Shown here: one piece after another, positions 1 through 10,403 of the stretch | How the letters are laid out: every line of letters starts with the position of its first letter | Position numbering within the stretch: the first letter of the stretch is position 1 | IMG/VR virus record: IMGVR_UViG_3300032278_000135 | Location: 1-21,587 of that record | Source: a virus | Strand: one strand, 5' to 3' | DNA length: 21,587 bases | Position numbers and translations under genes: made by a program | The notes under the pieces: model-generated | Seen by the model: only the letters and a program-made list of their open reading frames with translations | Databases searched by the model: none | Told to the model about the DNA's origin: nothing

Positions 1-188
1 GCCTTCATGCCCACGGACACCCAGAATTCAGCAGGAGCATCCGCCAGGGAATAATCGTTCTCCTTGGCTATATGCTCGGCTATGTTCTCGAACGTCCACG
101 ACGAGATCCCAGGTTCGGTGGGATCTTCAGCAACTTCCGGTGCTGTTTCCGGTTTGGCCTTTGTATCGACCTTCGGTAGTTTTGCCAT
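1..188 (-). CDS. Unknown protein, N-terminal part only
   Basis: Leftward gene cut by the window edge; about 62 residues are visible. The ATG is the reverse complement of CAT at 186-188, and a GGAAGGAG ribosome binding site lies a few bases upstream. The protein begins MAKLPKVDTKAKPETAPEVA and stays rich in Pro, Glu and Ala for some 30 residues, which suggests a flexible N-terminal tail, before a more ordered part with Trp and Phe. Because its first codons diverge from the small-gene array to the right, the 189-341 gap may hold promoters for both directions. I do not recognise the family; a virion protein is possible but unsupported. Confidence 0.7.
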   Translation of the reverse strand, partial: MAKLPKVDTKAKPETAPEVAEDPTEPGISSWTFENIAEHIAKENDYSLADAPAEFWVSVGMK

Positions 189-249
189 TGGATAAACTCC
201 TTCCTTCGGCAACCAATGAAATAAAACGAACAGCCCAGAACTTAACCCC

Positions 250-278
250 TTGACGCACTAGGCTCAAATCATTATCCT
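250..278 (+). promoter_or_regulatory. Sigma70-like promoter (TTGACG-17-TATCCT)
   Basis: The -35 box TTGACG is at 250-255 and the -10 box TATCCT at 273-278, 17 bases apart. It would drive the genes at 342 and 554. The leader that follows holds a C5/G8 hairpin (291-310) and a T-rich tract just before the ribosome binding site. Confidence 0.5.
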
Positions 279-341
279 CGTTTTTTCTCGCCCCCTATGT
301 ATGGGGGGGGAAGTCGTTTCTTTTTTTTAAGGAGGTCTGCC

Positions 342-554
342 ATGGCAGGCAAAAATCAAGGCGATGCGATGAGTATCGACATTGTTAAGGGCAAGCTGAC
401 AATCGAGGCCGATATTGTCCAGGGGCGCAGATCGAAGTCGGGCAAGTCCGAGTTGCTGCTGACCACCAGTGGCAACCAGGAACTTGAAACGCTGGTCTTG
501 AACGGCAAGCCCGTCACGGTGTCCATCAACGTCTATCAGAAAGTTGGTGGATAA
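342..554 (+). CDS. Small unknown phage protein (70 aa)
   Basis: The start at 342 is chosen because AAGGAGG lies at 329-335 with good spacing; an in-frame extension to 297 would read through the G8 tract and has no ribosome binding site. After about ten polar residues the protein looks like a small all-beta fold: alternating hydrophobic stretches such as KLTIEADIV, ELLLTT and PVTVSINVYQ separated by a basic loop (GRRSKSGK). No enzyme motif is visible. It overlaps the next gene by one base (TAATG), so the two are probably translationally coupled. Its place as first gene of the small-gene array suggests an early accessory role, which is inference only. Confidence 0.7.
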   Translation: MAGKNQGDAMSIDIVKGKLTIEADIVQGRRSKSGKSELLLTTSGNQELETLVLNGKPVTVSINVYQKVGG

Positions 555-799
555 TGGCCGGGAGAGCAAAGCAGATCAACAGCACTGGTACGAAGCTGTC
601 AATCGTATGTGGCCCCGTGGTAATCGACCTGCGTATCAGCGGAGAGATTACCATTGTTCATCGTGAGGGCGAGGATGCCCCGGCGATCTCCGTCAGTAGG
701 CCCAGGAATCTCGCAAAGAAACGTTCCAAGTCCAAGAAGGCTGTCACGGTTGACGCTTTCCAGGTGGATCAGGGCGTGGTTGAGATCCTTGACGAATAG
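554..799 (+). CDS. Small basic unknown protein (81 aa)
   Basis: Starts on the A of the upstream stop (TAATG), so it probably depends on coupled translation. Residues about 12-50 alternate hydrophobic and polar residues like short beta strands (TKLSIVCGPVVIDLRISGEI). They are followed by a basic segment (NLAKKRSKSKK, about residues 52-62) and an acidic C-terminus ending EILDE. The basic patch could bind nucleic acid, but no known DNA-binding motif is present. An intrinsic terminator follows 30 bases after the stop, closing a two-gene unit with the gene at 342. Family not recognised. Confidence 0.7.
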   Translation: MAGRAKQINSTGTKLSIVCGPVVIDLRISGEITIVHREGEDAPAISVSRPRNLAKKRSKSKKAVTVDAFQVDQGVVEILDE

Positions 800-821
800 T
801 CCGAACTGAGTTGGTAGGTGG

Positions 822-850
822 TTGACCTGAGACTTCCCATTCCGTAAGGT
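822..850 (+). promoter_or_regulatory. Possible promoter overlapping a terminator
   Basis: TTGACC at 822-827 and TAAGGT at 845-850 are 17 bases apart. The spacer and -10 lie inside the terminator hairpin at 830-861. The -10 match is weak (T, A and final T only). It would serve the gene at 896, which has no other visible promoter. Confidence 0.25.
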
Positions 851-866
851 TTGGGGAGTCTTTTTT
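830..866 (+). terminator. Intrinsic terminator
   Basis: The left arm AGACTTCCC (830-838) pairs with GGGGAGTCT (853-861), nine pairs including one G-T. T residues run to 866. It ends the 342-799 unit. Confidence 0.75.
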
Positions 867-895
867 ATTCACTGCTTTTTGAAAGGAGCAACGTC

Positions 896-1315
896 ATGGA
901 ACTATCCGAAGAAGATAAGGCGAAAGCCGAAGCTGTCCTTGAGAATCAGGAACTGAGGGACAAGTACGATGCGGATCTCAAGCGGTTTGAAACCTGTATA
1001 GCCCAGGACAAGCTGAGGACAACAGGCGACACGGTTAAGATGCTGGCAGAATATGAATGTCCAGCGCATACGGCCTTGGGCCTGTCGGTTGCAATCGCAG
1101 CCTTCGATATATTCCAGGGGGCTGGATGTGCCGCTGATTTTTGTTTCCAGGACGTTACTGACAGCCCGTCATTCTGCTCGATATTCGGGGGCTTCAATCG
1201 GCTCCGGTTCTCGTCGCAGCCCCGTGATGGTGGCGGTTGTTGGGATTACTCGGAATCCCATTGTACTGATGACTTTATCGCCCATTGTCGAACCCTGGGC
1301 ATACCCGCAAGCTGA
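896..1315 (+). CDS. Cys-rich unknown protein (139 aa)
   Basis: ATG 896 follows GAAAGGAG at 881-888; the open frame continues back to 851 but only through the terminator. The first 60 residues are acidic and helical (MELSEEDKAKAEAVLENQEL). The second half is rich in Cys, Phe and Gly, with about eight Cys between residues 35 and 132, but they are not spaced as a clear zinc finger. The change of character near residue 65 could mean two domains, or that the second half is under weak constraint: a second open frame (1053-1325) overlaps it. Family not recognised. Confidence 0.6.
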   Translation: MELSEEDKAKAEAVLENQELRDKYDADLKRFETCIAQDKLRTTGDTVKMLAEYECPAHTALGLSVAIAAFDIFQGAGCAADFCFQDVTDSPSFCSIFGGFNRLRFSSQPRDGGGCWDYSESHCTDDFIAHCRTLGIPAS

Positions 1316-1328
1316 AAGGAACTGAATC

Positions 1329-1577
1329 ATGCGAAACCCAAGAGGACTATTAAAGCCCGTACCGGAAAACGGGATGCAGGAGGTGGTTAACGCCTTCACC
1401 GACCAGGAGGATGCTGACGCTGACGGATACGGCGATGCTTATCGGGCTTGCCGTGAGTACCTGGAGGACCACGGCCAGCTAGAGCTCCCCGACAGCGAGT
1501 GTAAGACTTGCGGGATGGTGCTGGACCACGGCCTTTACATCTGTTCAGACTGTCATGTTGATGTGGGAGGGGCTTGA
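1329..1577 (+). CDS. Small zinc-ribbon-like protein (82 aa)
   Basis: ATG 1329 is preceded by AAAGGAA. The C-terminal quarter carries two CxxC knuckles (C58-x2-C61 and C72-x2-C75) separated by ten residues, the pattern of a zinc ribbon. The N-terminal part is polar and acidic (around residues 26-33 it reads DQEDADADGYGD). Small zinc-ribbon proteins are common in phage accessory regions and may bind nucleic acid or host proteins; the target cannot be read here. Its stop codon overlaps a TTGACA box that may be the -35 of a downstream promoter. Function unknown; the metal-binding call is from spacing only. Confidence 0.7.
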   Translation: MRNPRGLLKPVPENGMQEVVNAFTDQEDADADGYGDAYRACREYLEDHGQLELPDSECKTCGMVLDHGLYICSDCHVDVGGA

Positions 1578-1602
1578 CAACCGTTTCCCAGGTCGGTAAT
1601 GT
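1574..1602 (+). promoter_or_regulatory. Possible promoter for a small RNA
   Basis: A consensus -35 (TTGACA, 1574-1579) overlaps the stop codon of the zinc-ribbon gene. After 17 bases comes TAATGT (1597-1602), a weak -10. No gene follows before the terminator at 1709-1750, so any transcript from here would be a short RNA. Confidence 0.35.
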
Positions 1603-1607
1603 GCTGA

Positions 1608-1750
1608 TCTTAATTCGGCTGGTGTGCGCCACCCAACCCAAGCGTCCAGATCGTAACCGTCACAACAATCCTTTCAACGGTTACGAAAGCCCACCAGCCA
1701 CACAGCCCGAAACCCTCTCCAGGTGCAACGCTTGGAGGGGGTTTCTTTTT
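1608..1750 (+). ncRNA. Candidate small structured RNA
   Basis: A 280-base gap without a convincing gene lies between the genes at 1329 and 1858. It can form a nested structure: outer arms GGCTGGTG (1617-1624) and CACCAGCC (1692-1699), inner perfect 10-base arms TCGTAACCGT (1651-1660) and ACGGTTACGA (1677-1686) with a 16-base loop, then a 13-pair terminator stem. A possible promoter sits just upstream at 1574-1602. It does not look like a tRNA. The alternative is an untranslated leader or operator sites. Confidence 0.3.
1709..1750 (+). terminator. Strong intrinsic terminator
   Basis: A 13-pair stem joins 1709-1721 (GAAACCCTCTCCA) and 1733-1745, with one G-T pair and an 11-base loop, followed by five T (1746-1750). 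Confidence 0.85.
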
Positions 1751-1785
1751 GTGGCCTTGCTCGGCTCAGCTCCTCTTTTTCCCCG

Positions 1786-1815
1786 TTGACCTCCAGCCCC
1801 GCCAGGGCGTATTAT
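1786..1815 (+). promoter_or_regulatory. Sigma70-like promoter (TTGACC-18-TATTAT)
   Basis: TTGACC at 1786-1791 and TATTAT at 1810-1815 are 18 bases apart. It lies just after a strong terminator and before the gene at 1858. The 13 bases at 1820-1832 (GCTGGATTGTTTC) recur at the same offset after the promoter at 3059. Confidence 0.6.
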
Positions 1816-1857
1816 TCCCGCTGGATTGTTTCACGTTTTCTTAACCAGGAGGAAGTC

Positions 1858-2028
1858 ATGCTTGCCAATTGTGCAGTATGCGGAGAGTCGTTGTTTTTCC
1901 ATACCATGTGCCAGGAGCCTATCGCAAAGGGTCCATTTTGTTGCAGTGTGGAATGCAGGGACAAGTACGAGCCGAAAGCGTCCACGGATATGAATGATCA
2001 GGTATTTGTTGAAGAAGGGAAAGAATGA
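1858..2028 (+). CDS. Short Cys/His metal-binding protein (56 aa)
   Basis: ATG 1858 follows AGGAGG and fits the promoter at 1786; the longer open frame back to 1723 would cross the terminator. The first 33 residues hold C5, C8, H15, C18, C28, C29 and C33, spaced like a single treble-clef or MYM/HIT-type zinc knuckle. The remainder is an acidic tail (about residues 42-56). No catalytic residues are apparent, so a binding or adaptor role is likelier than an enzyme. It heads a four-gene unit (1858-3012) in which every junction is an ATGA overlap. Confidence 0.65.
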   Translation: MLANCAVCGESLFFHTMCQEPIAKGPFCCSVECRDKYEPKASTDMNDQVFVEEGKE

Positions 2029-2360
2029 GCATGGATCAGAATCTATACGACGATTGCGAGAGTGAACACGCCATCGCCATGAGCGGCGACAAGTTGCCCG
2101 ATGGACTGCTGGCTGATGTTGCGAGTGATCGAGTGGCGATCAGTGGCGAGAAGGTGATGACCCTTGGAGAATTGGAGAGCCTCATCAAGCGGATACGAGA
2201 GAGAAGCGGGCATTATGAAAAGTCGGTTTGCGATCTACAAATCCAGCGGATGAACCTCAAGCGGGAAATCAAAGACCTGGGACAGATGGCATCTGCGATG
2301 GCGATCCATTGCAACGCCGTGATGAAGAAGATCACCGATGAATATGAGGTGGAAGCATGA
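2025..2360 (+). CDS. Coiled-coil unknown protein (111 aa)
   Basis: Starts inside the upstream stop (ATGA at 2025-2028), which indicates coupled translation. The first 40 residues are acidic. From about residue 42 onward the sequence is a long amphipathic helix with heptad-like hydrophobics (LGELESLIKRIRERS, then QIQRMNLKREIKDLGQMASA), so dimerisation through a coiled coil is likely. No catalytic or DNA-binding motif is visible. Family not recognised. Confidence 0.65.
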   Translation: MSMDQNLYDDCESEHAIAMSGDKLPDGLLADVASDRVAISGEKVMTLGELESLIKRIRERSGHYEKSVCDLQIQRMNLKREIKDLGQMASAMAIHCNAVMKKITDEYEVEA

Positions 2361-2509
2361 GCGATGCAGAAGGTTGGAGGGTTGAATTGTGGTCGCCCGA
2401 TGATGTCCTGGTGATTGTCTCAAACTATCACGAAGGAGCCACCATCCCCGACGACCTGGGGGAAGATTTGAGAGAAGCCGTTGACGAGTACAAGAAAGGG
2501 AAAGCATGA
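2357..2509 (+). CDS. Very small acidic protein (50 aa)
   Basis: A 50-residue reading frame fills the gap between its neighbours exactly: ATGA overlap with the gene before it (2357-2360) and with the one after it (2506-2509). This junction style matches the rest of the unit and is the main reason to accept so short a gene; GGTGGAAG just upstream can serve as ribosome binding site. The protein begins MSDAEGWRVELWSPDDVLVI, then turns acidic and ends in a short basic helix (EYKKGKA). Family not recognised. Confidence 0.6.
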   Translation: MSDAEGWRVELWSPDDVLVIVSNYHEGATIPDDLGEDLREAVDEYKKGKA

Positions 2510-3012
2510 GAATCAAAAACATGATCACGATACGCCAGGGACTCACTGAGGGGCAGGCTGAGTTCTGGCTGATGAGGCGAGGCGATGCGAGGGTGTGCGG
2601 TAGGCCGATGAATCTGGAGGATTTCACGGATCCATGGGACAACCCCCGGCCAGACTATGCCCAATATCACTGGGGTGTCAATCTGCTGGAGTCCTGCCCG
2701 TTTGATGTCCAGGGGGTTTGGTATCACCTCCAGGCACTCTGGGCGATGCAACGGTTTGCCCGGTTTGCTCATGGGTCGCTGAACCTCAACAACATCACCA
2801 AGCGGGACATCCTCGACCGTCACATCTTCACCGAATCGGTGAGGGTGCAACTCCCCCCCAGGAGAACCATCCTCGATGGTCGTTCGTACTGGCTCGAACC
2901 GGACGGCTCCATCGGTTTTGAGTCGGAACCAGTCATCATCGACGGGAGAACAGCAGCAGCCTTACGCAAGGCCAGCGACGACCTGGAGGACATTCTACAC
3001 GATGTAGACTGA
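2506..3012 (+). CDS. Unknown protein (168 aa)
   Basis: Last gene of the four-gene unit. The ATG overlaps the upstream stop, and GAAAGGGAAAG precedes it. The product is a mixed globular protein rich in aromatic residues in its first half (around residues 53-86: YAQYHWGVNLLES and VQGVWYHLQALWAMQRFARF). It later has short hydrophobic segments and an acidic C-terminus (LEDILHDVD). No nuclease, methyltransferase or protease motif is seen. A terminator-promoter composite begins 36 bases after the stop. Family not recognised. Confidence 0.65.
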   Translation: MRIKNMITIRQGLTEGQAEFWLMRRGDARVCGRPMNLEDFTDPWDNPRPDYAQYHWGVNLLESCPFDVQGVWYHLQALWAMQRFARFAHGSLNLNNITKRDILDRHIFTESVRVQLPPRRTILDGRSYWLEPDGSIGFESEPVIIDGRTAAALRKASDDLEDILHDVD

Positions 3013-3047
3013 CAGGACGTTACAAGCGATTCTCGCAAGCCTCAACA

Positions 3048-3079
3048 CCCCTCCAGCCTTGACAGGCCGGGGGGGTTTT
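3048..3079 (+). terminator. Intrinsic terminator with TTGACA loop
   Basis: The left arm 3048-3058 (CCCCTCCAGCC) pairs with 3065-3075 with one A-C mismatch and one G-T pair; T residues follow at 3076-3079. The six loop bases, 3059-3064, are exactly TTGACA, the -35 box of the overlapping promoter. Confidence 0.75.
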
Positions 3080-3087
3080 CTTATGAT
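3059..3087 (+). promoter_or_regulatory. Promoter embedded in terminator (TTGACA-17-TATGAT)
   Basis: The -35 (TTGACA, 3059-3064) is the loop of the terminator hairpin. The 17-base spacer is the right stem arm plus the T tract, and the -10 (TATGAT, 3082-3087) follows at once. This is the best sigma70 match in the window. It drives the genes at 3128 and 3457. Confidence 0.7.
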
Positions 3088-3127
3088 TCTGGCTGGATTG
3101 TTTCTATTCTTTTACAGGAGGTTCACC

Positions 3128-3457
3128 ATGAGTGAATTTTTCAAACTGCTGGAGGCTGTGTTCAAACTTGAACGAGTTCTGCACTGTGATCGGGATCAGG
3201 CCAAGCGTTTCGTCACGGCCTGTTATGCCGGGACTGCCTACGATGGCAAGTGTCCCGGCCCCAAGCTGGATCTATTCATGAAGGGCGGTATCTTTGACCT
3301 GTTCGCCTGTGCTGATGACGGTGGCCGAAGGATTGCGAGGGCGGTTCACGAAGCTCTGGAGGCTGACGGTTTCTTCGATCATGCAGGAGGAGCCATCAGA
3401 TGCTTCAAGGATGTAGAGTTCGACAACCCCATCGACTACGACAAGGGAGGTGAATAA
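3128..3457 (+). CDS. Unknown protein (109 aa)
   Basis: ATG 3128 has ACAGGAGG upstream at ideal spacing; the open frame back to 3059 lies in the promoter. The first 35 residues look helical (MSEFFKLLEAVFKLERVL, then RDQAKRFVTACYAG), followed by Gly- and Asp-containing turns and a further helix (about residues 68-81). Scattered Cys residues do not make a clear metal site. The stop overlaps the next start (TAATG). Family not recognised. Confidence 0.65.
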   Translation: MSEFFKLLEAVFKLERVLHCDRDQAKRFVTACYAGTAYDGKCPGPKLDLFMKGGIFDLFACADDGGRRIARAVHEALEADGFFDHAGGAIRCFKDVEFDNPIDYDKGGE

Positions 3458-3750
3458 TGGGACACGTCAAAGCCCCGATGTATCTCGTCTGCTCCTGCAA
3501 ACGTGAGAAGGCACTTTTTCCCGATGGGACAAGACCAATTGTTGAAGGTAGCGACCACTGGGAAACGTTCGATCTGTTCAGTGAGGCTCAGGCCGAGGTG
3601 GATAGGCTGCTGTCTCTCGATGATACCTACACCGCACAGTTGACCGTGGTCCTTGATGGTGATGGGAGCTACGATCAACCGCCACGGCCTATCAAGTTCA
3701 CGGACCGTTTCTGGCAGATCCTCAAGCACCAGATGACCCCGGCCAGCTAG
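3457..3750 (+). CDS. Unknown protein (97 aa)
   Basis: Coupled to the preceding gene by TAATG at 3455-3459, with AAGGGAGG just upstream. A mixed alpha/beta protein: an N-terminal strand with CSC (residues about 12-14), a helix around residues 42-53 (SEAQAEVDRLLS), a strand (AQLTVVLDGDG) and a C-terminal helix. No catalytic motif is seen. A near-perfect terminator begins 20 bases after the stop. Family not recognised. Confidence 0.65.
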   Translation: MGHVKAPMYLVCSCKREKALFPDGTRPIVEGSDHWETFDLFSEAQAEVDRLLSLDDTYTAQLTVVLDGDGSYDQPPRPIKFTDRFWQILKHQMTPAS

Positions 3751-3770
3751 CGCCTGGTCATTTCTTTCTC

Positions 3771-3803
3771 GCCCTCTGGCCTACTGGCCGGGGGGCTTTT
3801 TTT
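3771..3803 (+). terminator. Strong intrinsic terminator
   Basis: An 11-pair stem with two G-T pairs joins 3771-3781 (GCCCTCTGGCC) and 3786-3796, closed by the four-base loop TACT and followed by seven T (3797-3803). Confidence 0.9.
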
Positions 3804-3818
3804 ATGCTCTCAGGGTGG

Positions 3819-3848
3819 TTGACATTCAGGCCCACAGGCCCAGAATAT
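3819..3848 (+). promoter_or_regulatory. Sigma70-like promoter (TTGACA-18-GAATAT)
   Basis: TTGACA at 3819-3824 and GAATAT at 3843-3848 are 18 bases apart. Two overlapping 8-base palindromes (ATGTACAT 3847-3854 and TACATGTA 3850-3857) sit right after the -10 and could be an operator. A short stem, CTTTC/GAAAG (3878-3890), covers part of the ribosome binding site of the next gene. Confidence 0.45.
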
Positions 3849-3898
3849 GTACATGTAAGTTTTATTCTGTTGTGTCGCTTTCAATGAAAGGATGAGCG

Positions 3899-4120
3899 AT
3901 GAAAGTATTTGAACTGCGGATAACGTGTGTGACCTGTCCCGAGTGTGGGGAGGATCTACGGTATGAGGGCTGCGAGGATGGAGGCCATGAGATAACTGCT
4001 ATTGAAGAGATGGAGCAGTACACCCTTGAGTTTGAAGGTGGCCACGCCTTAGCTGAAAGCCTCCTGAATCATGCACGCTCTGAGCTTGAGAGTAACGGGC
4101 TGATTGGAGGGCTTGTCTAA
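3899..4120 (+). CDS. Small Cys-rich protein (73 aa)
   Basis: ATG 3899 is preceded by GAAAGGA at 3886-3892. The N-terminus holds C10, C13, C16, C25 and H30, consistent with one zinc-knuckle (the tripeptide between Cys pairs reads PE and VT). The rest is an acidic amphipathic helix (EMEQYTLEF, then HALAESLLNHARSELES). It may be an adaptor or regulator; nothing indicates catalysis. The stop overlaps the next start (TAATG at 4118-4122). Family not recognised. Confidence 0.65.
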   Translation: MKVFELRITCVTCPECGEDLRYEGCEDGGHEITAIEEMEQYTLEFEGGHALAESLLNHARSELESNGLIGGLV

Positions 4121-4506
4121 TGTGGGTACGAATATCACTCCACGCTGCCGAAGGCCCACGCACTGATGATATGCCACAGCCAAGCGGTGAGGCAGCCCAT
4201 GAGTATGAGCTTGATCGTTTCATTGAATTTGAAGTTGTAACGAGTGTAGGCAATCGGATACACGCCGAGGGCGAGTTCTGGGAGTCTCAGCGCATCAATA
4301 TCCTGCAAGCCATAGCGGAGCAGGTATACGATAACAAGGTGGTGAACATGGCTTTACCTCTCCAGACTGAACTATTCAAGTGGAACCCCCACGGGCAGGA
4401 GCTAACGCTTGACTATATCCATCGGTGTAGTGAGTGCGACGAAGGCATGAGCGAGGCAGGCATTAAGGGGCTGTGTCACTCCTGTCATGAGCTTCCCCCG
4501 CTGTAA
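4120..4506 (+). CDS. Unknown protein with C-terminal zinc ribbon (128 aa)
   Basis: Begins on the last base of the upstream stop. The main body (residues 1-95) is mixed and mildly acidic, with an ELDRFIEFEVVTSVG strand-like segment near the middle. The C-terminus carries C103-x2-C106 and C119-x2-C122 with flanking His (H101, H120, H123), a compact zinc-ribbon pattern. It is at least the third CxxC-type product in this array. An intrinsic terminator follows within 20 bases. Family not recognised. Confidence 0.65.
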   Translation: MWVRISLHAAEGPRTDDMPQPSGEAAHEYELDRFIEFEVVTSVGNRIHAEGEFWESQRINILQAIAEQVYDNKVVNMALPLQTELFKWNPHGQELTLDYIHRCSECDEGMSEAGIKGLCHSCHELPPL

Positions 4507-4871
4507 TACTCTCTCTTTTCCTTTGGCCTCTTGGCGTTTCCCCGCTGAGAGGCCTTTTTTCGTTTCTAACGGTAGAGATGCCCATGCTCACACCTGTTGA
4601 GCTTCCCCCTCACTGTTTCCCCCGCCTTTGAGTGTCCCCTGATCACTCAAGCCCCCAGAAAAAAGACAACGTTTTCACGTCATATAGTTTCGGATTGGTC
4701 GTTTTATCGGAACATGGCCAACATCGGATGGACCGCTGGAGCCTCCCCCCCCCCGTGGGGGGGCAAATTCACCCACATTTTTTCAACTTTTTCAACAAGA
4801 CCCTTGCTTTGCTTGCATACGCCCTGTAGGGTTCGGTTTCACACGTTTCTTTTTTTTAGTAGGAGGTTGTC
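4507..4871. promoter_or_regulatory. Non-coding control region before the replication block
   Basis: No convincing gene lies in these 365 bases; two short open frames cross homopolymer runs and have no ribosome binding site. Visible elements are the terminator at 4525-4560; a 7-base inverted repeat TTGAGTG/CACTCAA (4628-4634 and 4644-4650); a C10-GT-G7 hairpin (4745-4763); two tandem copies of TTTTTCAAC (4779-4787, 4788-4796); a weak promoter-like pair TTGCTT-17-TAGGGT near 4805-4833; and a T-rich leader like that at 315-330 before the ribosome binding site of the next gene. Confidence 0.5.
4525..4560 (+). terminator. Intrinsic terminator
   Basis: GGCCTCT (4525-4531) pairs with AGAGGCC (4548-4554), followed by six T (4555-4560). 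It ends the 3899-4506 unit. Confidence 0.8.
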
Positions 4872-5081
4872 ATGAGGCAACGCACGAAGATCACGGTCTC
4901 CACGCAGTTACCGGTGGAGTTGGTAGACAAGGTTGACGCGGTCAGGGAGAAACACCCGATCAAGTTGACCAGGTTATTTGAATTGGCGTTAAACAGCTAT
5001 ATAGAGGATGAGTACCCGGATATAGATGCAATCCAGGAGGATGAAGAGTTGGATAAGGCTAATAAAGAGGGAGTTATCTAA
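4872..5081 (+). CDS. Ribbon-helix-helix DNA-binding protein (69 aa)
   Basis: ATG 4872 follows TAGGAGG. Residues 5-45 fit the ribbon-helix-helix fold: a short strand (TKITVSTQLP), a first helix (VELVDKVDAVREK), a turn, and a second helix (KLTRLFELALNSYIED). The remainder is an acidic tail. Proteins of this fold bind DNA as dimers and commonly repress their own promoters; the repeats at 4628-4650 and 4779-4796 just upstream are candidate sites. It directly precedes the DUF1376 replication gene (3 bases between), so it may control replication genes. It resembles antitoxin-type RHH proteins, but no toxin gene is adjacent. Confidence 0.75.
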   Translation: MRQRTKITVSTQLPVELVDKVDAVREKHPIKLTRLFELALNSYIEDEYPDIDAIQEDEELDKANKEGVI

Positions 5082-5084
5082 GAT

Positions 5085-5921
5085 ATGGCAAAGCGCAAAT
5101 TGCCCTATATGAAGATGTGGGTAGGAGACTGGCTGAGTTCACAGAAGGTGATGGAGCTGAGTCCCATGGAGGAGTTTTGTTACTTCAGGTTAATCATGTG
5201 GGCGTGGCAAGCAAATGCTTCCGGTTTGCTTAACAAGGACGCCAACCTGGCTCAGCTGTGCCGGGTAGACCTGGACACATGGCTGTCGGTCAAGGACAGC
5301 GTGCTCAAGCTGTTTGAGGTGCGCGGTGACCGGCTGTTCCATCATAAGGTAGATGAGCAAGTCCAGCAGCAGAAGGAGATTAGCGAAAAAAGAGCTGCTG
5401 CTGGACGCATGGGTGGTAAAGCCAAAAAGCCCACAAATGATAAACAAGTGTTAAGCACTTGCTTAGCAAATGATACAATTATGCTTAAGCAAACACCCAA
5501 GCAAACCCCTTATGACTATGGCTCTAGCTCTAGCTGTGATTCTAGGCATGACGATATGTTTAAAGAAGTAGATTATGACAAGGGCCCCCGCGAGGCCTCA
5601 ACCATTATCAGAGATTACTATCTTGAGACGATCAACGGATCAGATCAGACAAGGACACAAGCAATGTCCCACATTAACAATGTTGTTATGGAACAACTCT
5701 ATACACCTGGACAAATTGTCCAGTCTATTGAACGTTATGGAGAGGAGGTCAAAGCGTCAGGTGCCAAGATGACAAAGTCTTGTGCCCGCTTCTTCTCAGA
5801 GAGACTATACATGGAGTTCCTCAGAGATGGGTGGACCCCACCAGAGAGAGGAGAGACATTTGAGGAGCTGTCAGAAGTAGACCCATTAGAAGCATTGAAG
5901 AAAAGGGCTTCAGGAGCCTGA
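5085..5921 (+). CDS. DUF1376-type phage replication protein (278 aa)
   Basis: The N-terminal 100 residues match the DUF1376 pattern: YMKMWVGDWLSSQKVMELSP, a helix with YFRLIMWAW, then GLLNKDANLAQLCRVD. A basic tail follows (EKRAAAGRMGGKAKK, about residues 100-114), which is typical of the family. Family members occur in phage replication modules in place of lambda O-like initiators. Residues about 115-165 are a low-complexity, Ser- and Lys-rich linker. A helical C-terminal domain (about 170-255) lacks recognisable motifs. The linker DNA (5446-5506) is AT-rich and holds several related palindromes, a possible origin inside the initiator gene as in lambda O. A second DUF1376-like gene lies at 8032. 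Confidence 0.8.
   Translation: MAKRKLPYMKMWVGDWLSSQKVMELSPMEEFCYFRLIMWAWQANASGLLNKDANLAQLCRVDLDTWLSVKDSVLKLFEVRGDRLFHHKVDEQVQQQKEISEKRAAAGRMGGKAKKPTNDKQVLSTCLANDTIMLKQTPKQTPYDYGSSSSCDSRHDDMFKEVDYDKGPREASTIIRDYYLETINGSDQTRTQAMSHINNVVMEQLYTPGQIVQSIERYGEEVKASGAKMTKSCARFFSERLYMEFLRDGWTPPERGETFEELSEVDPLEALKKRASGA
5446..5506. repeat. Cluster of related palindromes in the replication gene
   Basis: The elements are AAGTG-TTAAG-CACTT (5446-5460), TTGCT-T-AGCAA (5459-5469), the perfect palindrome TGCTTAAGCA (5482-5491), and two copies of AAGCAAAC (5487-5494, 5499-5506). All share a CTTA/TAAG or AGCAA core. The stretch is AT-richer than its surroundings and encodes the protein's disordered linker. It is a candidate replication origin or iteron set. 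Confidence 0.45.
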
Positions 5922-6012
5922 GAATCGTTTGTGCGCGTTTTTTATCCACCAACAGGTGGCAGACGTCGCAAAATCACTTAAATCGCTTAGAAGCTAATAC
6001 AGGAGTTCTGAA
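5922..6012. other. Short gap with a small hairpin
   Basis: The gap holds a perfect 5-base stem CCACC/GGTGG with an AACA loop (5946-5959), preceded rather than followed by a T run, so it is not a rightward terminator as read. The gene at 6013 has AGGAG at 6001-6005. Confidence 0.3.
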
Positions 6013-6720: not shown

Positions 6721-7157
6721 TGCCCGATAATATCCCCAAGCAACGACATGGGACAAGAGACCCGATCCAGCGTGCAGGCTGGATCTCCACCTGGCAGGAA
6801 CAAAGTTCTGGGGGCGAGGGAGCCGATGTAACGCTCACTAAGGCCGCCGAATCAGGTAAGACCCATTTTGTAACGTATATCACCGCGAGCACTGACCACG
6901 AACAATCAGAAATTGGGACCACAATCCCTGGCGCTGCTATCCAGATTCAGCTTAAGGACCATACAACAGTTGTATGGGAGGCCTGGTTCAATGATATTGG
7001 CGGAAATAATCCGGCACATTTCTCATTCCCAGCACCGATACAGTTGACAGAGGGTAATGCAATTCATGTGTTTTGCGATATGACAGACTCCGTTGTAGAC
7101 GCCTCACGGGTATCTGTGTCTTTTGGCGGATTCACCGATGATGGTAGAGTTGACTAA
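6720..7157 (+). CDS. Beta-sandwich-like protein A, paralogue of the next gene (145 aa)
   Basis: Starts on the last base of the upstream stop. After a polar N-terminus of about 37 residues, the protein is a series of strand-like segments: ADVTLTKAAESGKTHFVTYI, AAIQIQLKD, TVVWEAWF, HFSFPAPIQLTEGNAIHVF, then RVSVSFGGFTDDG. The same order of motifs (SGxTHFV, PxQxxEGxxxxxxxx, FxGFT) recurs in the gene at 7170, so the two arose by duplication. Such small all-beta proteins in phages are often head decoration, fibre or receptor-binding parts, but the position next to replication genes does not establish this. No signal peptide or catalytic site. Confidence 0.7.
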   Translation: MPDNIPKQRHGTRDPIQRAGWISTWQEQSSGGEGADVTLTKAAESGKTHFVTYITASTDHEQSEIGTTIPGAAIQIQLKDHTTVVWEAWFNDIGGNNPAHFSFPAPIQLTEGNAIHVFCDMTDSVVDASRVSVSFGGFTDDGRVD

Positions 7158-10219: not shown

Positions 10220-10403
10220 ATCGGCTCTCCTTTATGGTCTTGGCCATAGCGTGGTTGGCGTCCCTGAGAAGATCAACCTCCATCTGTATGCGCTCAAGCT
10301 CCCCGGTGATTTTCTTGGTTGCTTTGCGGAAATCCCTGATGAGGAGTTCGACCTTTGCGGATGTGACGGTCGCGTCTGAGGTGCTGAATATTGGCTTAGG
10401 CAT
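10203..10403 (-). CDS. Small coiled-coil protein (66 aa)
   Basis: Starts on the last base of the preceding stop (TAATG in the leftward sense). After a short Ser/Thr-rich start, residues about 15-60 form one amphipathic helix (KVELLIRDFRKATKKITGEL, then ERIQMEVDLLRDANHAMAKT), a likely coiled-coil dimer or oligomer. Sandwiched between large structural-type genes, it may be a chaperone or small virion component. Family not recognised. Confidence 0.6.
   Translation of the reverse strand: MPKPIFSTSDATVTSAKVELLIRDFRKATKKITGELERIQMEVDLLRDANHAMAKTIKESRYASPR

Follow-up and report, generated by a model that had tools for sequence, protein, structure and literature searches.

In this study we describe a short unit in the early region of a phage known from environmental DNA, at positions 1574-1750 of the window (the whole 21,587-base stretch of DNA analysed here), which from its sequence and predicted fold is probably a gene for a phage small RNA. 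The unit seems to encode no protein, and its predicted anatomy is common to a second unit, found in the single relative that covers the same region. A promoter and a terminator that bound a stable non-coding fold among different neighbours argue for an RNA that would act by itself. For the fuller statement, a small-RNA gene that would act by base pairing and whose targets we hold loosely, we see somewhat less than an even chance.

Anatomy, coding potential and fold of the unit

Pfam and PHROG searches found phage terminase and portal genes in the window. Its early region is a series of small cassettes, several of which have their own promoter-like site and terminator: the promoter scan placed such a site before each of the genes 342, 1858, 3128 and 3899, the terminator scan gave terminator-like sites 3' of 3012 (weak, 5 pairs), 3750 and 4506, and a further terminator was seen by eye after 799. 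The unit at 1574-1750 is the sole early-region cassette in which no convincing open frame was found. The genes 896, 1329, 1858 and 2025 that flank it in the window matched no Pfam or PHROG family. The top-scoring promoter-like site of window positions 1-6000 lies elsewhere, at 3059-3087 (TTGACA-17-TATGAT), and overlaps a terminator-like hairpin at 3057-3072.

All parts of the unit lie on the plus strand. Sequence inspection and a pattern search place the putative promoter at 1574-1602: TTGACA at 1574-1579 overlaps the TGA stop of gene 1329-1577, a spacer of 17 nt follows at 1580-1596, and the -10-like TAATGT at 1597-1602 is weak, agreeing with the consensus at 3 of 6 positions, which is why the promoter is absent from the list of the consensus scan. 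The predicted transcript of ~140 nt would run from 1608, a start placed from the -10, to 1750, the end of the terminator. Within it the outer arms GGCTGGTG (1617-1624) and CACCAGCC (1692-1699) form a stem of 8 bp in sequence and fold. They enclose the C/A-rich left strand of an internal loop at 1625-1650, mostly unpaired in the fold, and an inner hairpin that was picked up by the fold and the inverted-repeat count alike. The arms of this hairpin, TCGTAACCGT (1651-1660) and ACGGTTACGA (1677-1686), make 10 bp, and its loop of 16 nt at 1661-1676, singled out by the pairing analysis, is without G and contains TCCTTTCA at 1669-1676. An intrinsic terminator at 1709-1750, found by the terminator scan, closes the unit; its loop region AGGTGCAACGC proved in the sequence comparison to be exactly common to the relative. 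The coordinates, promoter elements and nested arms were all confirmed as the initial annotation had given them. The terminator it described is present as well, yet the 13 pairs assigned to it are too few: the hairpin at 1709-1745 has up to 17 pairs when G-U pairs are included and is followed by TTTTTGT.

The earlier view that there is no acceptable gene between 1578 and 1857 was supported for the unit by the listed frames. Among the listed frames, which have at least 60 aa, the only one that starts in and spans the stretch is a 71-aa frame with a TTG start, and it reads through the terminator; by eye, the corresponding frame in the relative has 30 codons before its stop. No open frame with a ribosome-binding site was seen by eye in the unit. 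Rfam gave no match above gathering score in the window, and in 1500-1860 the two matches obtained were far below their gathering scores (E 2.3 and 4.5). A tRNA search of the window found none.

When the fold was compared with shuffled sequence, as had been proposed at the outset, the core (1612-1703) reached a minimum free energy of -29.8 kcal/mol, whereas its shuffles averaged -15.55 (z -4.78), and none of 200 shuffles was as good, a z value that is somewhat overstated because the stretch had been picked for its structured look. For the longer stretch 1578-1710 we obtained z -2.97, again with 0 of 200 shuffles as good, and for the reverse strand of 1603-1710 z -2.10, with 7 of 200 as good. 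The window has five pairs of perfect arms of at least 10 bp within 90 nt, whereas ten random sequences with its dinucleotide composition had 0.8 on average. Inside the DUF1376 gene of the window lies a perfect inverted repeat of 12 bp (5361-5372/5395-5406), and the relative's copy of that gene has a 10-bp inverted repeat at 10279/10311 of its locus.

A counterpart unit in the one covering relative

Close relatives of this phage are very rare in the collections searched. Portal and terminase searches of viral contigs yielded four close records, one of which (L113) represents the same virus across 5,304 bases, while the others are 86-87% identical in portal. Only one, IMGVR_UViG_3300008216_000030 (36,281 bases, portal 86% identical to that of the window), covers the early region; the locus taken from it, L120, comprises 20,840 of its 36,281 bases. 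The portal search of viral contigs gave four loci and the search with the DUF1376 protein one, the relative. A terminase alignment extended this to 26 loci, namely the same four close ones and 22 distant ones at 24-34% identity, and a DUF1376 alignment to the relative and two loci at 38% over 67 residues. The 168-aa protein of the window had no relatives in viral contigs. Against genome contigs the terminase alignment had 13 matches, all distant (23-32%), and pointed to no host, and a terminase search of plasmids gave no match. Among named phages there was no nucleotide match; two matches were obtained with portal (25.5% and 20.9% identity), one with terminase (26.6%) and none with two other proteins. 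Hence no close named relative of this phage group was found.

In the relative, L120 6872-7030 holds a unit with its parts in the same order as window 1574-1750. The first of these parts is GGCTTGACA, and its TGA ends the gene before the unit. Its putative promoter (6872-6900, TTGACA-17-TATCGT) has a better -10 than that of the window and is the highest-scoring promoter-like site that the promoter scan found in L120 5400-10100. Next come a 12-bp stem (6920-6931/6974-6985) with an inner hairpin of 5 bp inside it and, at 6997-7025, a terminator whose loop region AGGTGCAACGC is the same as in the window. The core again folds far better than its shuffles (z -5.01, 0 of 200 as good); the inner part 6918-6975, taken without the closing arm, is no better than shuffles (z +1.26).

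The genes around the two units are different. In three pieces covering the relative's contig, tblastn gave no match at E 1e-3 to window genes 1329 and 1858, and the relative's gene before the unit has no match in the window. For the gene that follows the relative's unit the match is window gene 342-554 (E 1e-6), not 1329 or 1858; in the window that gene sits upstream of the unit, with genes 554, 896 and 1329 in between. These differences in flanking genes mean that the unit, or its neighbours, has moved. The initial interpretation is partly supported: the recurrence of the anatomy among other genes favours an isolated non-coding unit bounded by a promoter and a terminator of its own. The cores of the two units could not be aligned convincingly by sequence or by a core-only model.

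The same comparison bears on an alternative, namely that the stretch is the plain 3' end of the preceding operon (genes 896-1577) and that TTGACA is a chance match. The unit does begin at a stop codon, and its weak -10 (3/6), passed over by the consensus scan, would fit such a view. However, the relative keeps TTGACA, the 17-nt spacer and an improved -10 after an unrelated gene; the pattern TTGACA-N16..18-TAnnnT occurs four times on the two strands of the window together, against 0.38 expected; and for a terminator a further stem of about 80 nt would be superfluous. We consider a mere operon end quite unlikely.

A structured RNA between promoter and terminator in both phages could also be a transcription attenuator or a put-like antitermination leader, acting in cis on polymerase or terminator and thereby setting downstream read-through. 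In the window, CCAAGCGU (1639-1646) could pair by eye with ACGCUUGG in the 3' arm of the terminator, and for gene 7120, downstream of the unit in the relative, the promoter scan listed no site, only a poor TTGCAC-18-TAGGCT being seen by eye. In HK022, putL is found a short way downstream from the early promoter PL (PMC9378689). Against such a role, the downstream genes differ between the two phages, the CCAAGCGU pairing is by eye not kept in the relative, and only 9 nt, with no gene among them, separate the stem from the terminator. Moreover, gene 1858 has its own promoter-like site and leader at 1786-1832 on the plus strand (TTGACC-18-TATTAT, then GCTGGATTGTTTC), and the leader recurs at 3092-3104, after the -10 of gene 3128, so that the unit would be unneeded as a leader of gene 1858. 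An action in cis on transcription thus appears unlikely to us. Window 1810-1832 and 3082-3104 each carry a -10-like hexamer and then GCTGGATTGTTTC, before two different genes, and this combination is a repeated promoter-leader of the window phage.

It might further be supposed that the stretch works as DNA, be it as a single-strand fold, an origin or a recombination junction for the swapping of cassettes, and is no RNA gene. The plus strand folds with DNA parameters too (z -4.55 and -4.66), and a junction would fit conserved ends around a variable middle. However, promoter and terminator are co-directional and delimit the fold in both phages, and no direct repeats of at least 12 bases occur in window 1300-2050 or L120 6600-7400. 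Given the lack of such repeats and of Pfam or PHROG families among the flanking genes, nothing marks an origin or integration site, which is weak evidence. A DNA-level element is in our judgement very unlikely.

How closely the two units are related was assessed in several ways. Promoter and terminator are alike in sequence, the cores are not. In a local alignment of the cores P was 0.21 under strict scoring and 0.028 under loose scoring, each set against 2000 shuffles, and a search of 64,613 bases with a model built from the window core alone missed the relative's unit at a cut-off of E 10. The full-unit model does find it, as the best non-self match in 669,583 bases (32 bits, E 2.3e-6); this score comes in large part from the terminator, a different terminator of L120 reaching 22 bits, and since terminators alone score high and the core-only model fails we do not take the E value as proof of core homology. 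In the distant terminase loci (+/-10 kb as available) the full-unit model found nothing convincing. A shared unpaired motif, ACCCAAC..AGCGTCC, was considered and dropped, because an alignment on CAACAA.CC.TTCA is just as good and the cores resemble each other marginally at most. When the arms are compared, with two members only, both units have strong stems and the cores are not convincingly alignable.

A descriptor written after both units had been seen, which asks for a promoter, a stem of 8 bp closing a loop of 30-80 and a terminator, matched only the window and L120 units when run on 205 loci plus the window, a total of 4,305,500 strand-bases including overlaps; three extra hits were the same two places in overlapping loci. 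Loosening the promoter to TTGAC added five more loci (L074, L101, L181, L190 and L199), three of which look like one sequence. In viral contigs, a DNA pattern for the outer arms returned 111 stretches, one of them with terminase and portal 28-29% identical, and BLAST of window DNA and proteins revealed no close relative among the 111. A pattern of motif and terminator returned 5 stretches and one of promoter and motif 41, each including the relative once; none of the other 40 combined promoter, common terminator loop and T run, one of them (L203) ending short of any terminator. An idea that would go further is that of a movable RNA-only cassette in an uncultivated phage group. Its promoter and terminator would stay fixed, while its stems would be free to change and its loop would be re-aimed in each phage, in the window phage at ribosome-binding sites belonging to three of its early genes. 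We give it a small chance; if true, one short RNA would time the shut-off of several early operons.

Further likenesses between the two phages were noted outside the unit. The 40 bases at window 194-233 are identical to L120 6102-6141 and lie just upstream of the start codon (186-188) of a leftward gene at the left edge of the window, whose protein is only about 35% identical to the relative's over 72 residues; this 5' leader is strongly kept between the two. By eye, the 11-mer GGTAGGTGGTT stands between a gene stop and a terminator both at window 813-823 and at L120 9197-9207, where its copies follow different genes. The terminators at window 830-872 and L120 7569-7611 have GTAAG in the loop and the tail TTTTTTATTCAC in common, whereas their arms differ (by eye); they follow like-placed genes (window 554, L120 7359) of marginal protein similarity (E 0.04).

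Predicted pairing of the loop with ribosome-binding sites

Among the functions first listed for the unit (a regulatory RNA, an antisense or decoy, a packaging-type RNA), a trans-acting base-pairing RNA would be the likeliest; nothing in the comparisons favoured a cis antisense to a neighbouring gene or a packaging RNA. We infer the transcription, stability, pairing and repressing action of this predicted RNA, and picture them as follows. A sigma-70-type promoter would start a ~140-nt transcript that ends at its own strong terminator, and the long stem and the terminator hairpin would provide a stable scaffold that displays the G-free loop. The RNA would then act via base pairing: the loop sequence UCCUUUCA could cover UGAAAGGA of the early genes 896, 1329 and 3899, and the translation of these genes would be lowered once the RNA accumulates.

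The 16-nt loop holds UCCUUUCA, and its complement UGAAAGGA occurs exactly three times on the plus strand of the 21.6 kb, all three copies sitting at ribosome-binding sites. The candidate targets, proposed by complementarity and all on the plus strand, are copies of TGAAAGGA at 880-887 (gene 896-1315), at 1313-1320 (gene 1329-1577) and at 3885-3892 (gene 3899-4120, where 9 bases match the loop). Counting both strands, TGAAAGGA is present three times on the plus and once, in the loop, on the minus strand, four in total against 1.06 expected. Loop complementarity of 8-9 bases was found in 3 of 36 start regions of the window, a number reached by a fraction of 0.0018 of 5000 loop shuffles. At a length of at least 7 bases the pairing is not significant (P 0.053), and for the left strand of the internal loop against the start regions P was 0.12. 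Control 16-mers from outside the start regions reached three start regions in 35 of 19,231 cases on the plus strand, 9 of the 35 overlapping the loop itself, and in 17 of 19,231 on the minus strand.

Duplex energy does not set 896, 1329 and 3899 apart, genes 4120 and 16371 being lower than the best of the three candidates. Full-length cofolding with the three target regions did not form the loop pairing, by a method that cannot represent loop-loop contact. The relative's loop matched none of 20 start regions of L120 by at least 7 bases, 3 of the 20 regions being placed off the start codon. The pairing was noticed post hoc and ribosome-binding sites resemble one another; given this, the P of 0.053, the 0 of 20 in the relative and the duplex energies, we hold only tentatively, and with considerable doubt, that the ribosome-binding sites of genes 896, 1329 and 3899 are the targets of the loop.

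A small RNA that acts on host RNA or via protein binding, and not on the phage's own ribosome-binding sites, is a related possibility. It would agree with the lack of a target for the relative's loop in 20 start regions of L120. It would also agree with two pairing comparisons in which the query did no better than its 8 shuffled versions: the left strand of the window unit against the window, and the loop of the relative against L120 (20,840 of 36,281 bases). Against it, the three matches at ribosome-binding sites would be left as chance. We regard an action on host RNA or through protein as rather improbable.

Comparison with known phage and bacterial RNAs

Genome annotation looks mostly for proteins. 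If the unit is real, it offers a signature by which such units can be recognised (a promoter, a long stem and a terminator without a gene) as well as a concrete target hypothesis, UCCUUUCA against UGAAAGGA. Small RNAs with C-rich loops, such as RNAIII and others of S. aureus, pair with Shine-Dalgarno sequences. Like these, the window unit would present a G-free loop fitting a G-rich ribosome-binding site on a stable stem; in contrast, the RNAIII-type loops are UCCC and bacterial, whereas the loop of the window is UCCUUUCA, from a phage, and its pairing is a prediction. Literature searches, which were not aimed at the window phage, returned no paper on the unit.

HK022 put RNAs are described in the available text of PMC9378689 as about 70 nt long, with two stem-loops, and as acting on distant terminators. 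The window unit resembles them as a structured early phage RNA near a promoter (PMC9378689). However, its predicted stems are nested and a terminator comes at once after them, and as far as put is described there the window unit does not have the architecture of two stem-loops in about 70 nt upstream of the genes served (PMC9378689).

Another likeness is offered by PreS of lambda, VpdS of VP882 and sar of P22, which the available text of PMC12197685 presents as phage-encoded trans-acting small RNAs. Its table lists phage small RNAs under named phages or prophages together with bacterial hosts, and the usual action of such RNAs is base pairing; sar, for instance, pairs with ant mRNA and blocks its translation start (PMC12197685). 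With a predicted ~140 nt the window RNA would be longer than PreS, VpdS and sar (about 50-88 nt), to which no sequence relation is shown (PMC12197685). Like them, it would be a short non-coding RNA from a phage genome (PMC12197685). A phage small RNA gene is as such an ordinary kind of thing, of which the window unit is probably a new example.
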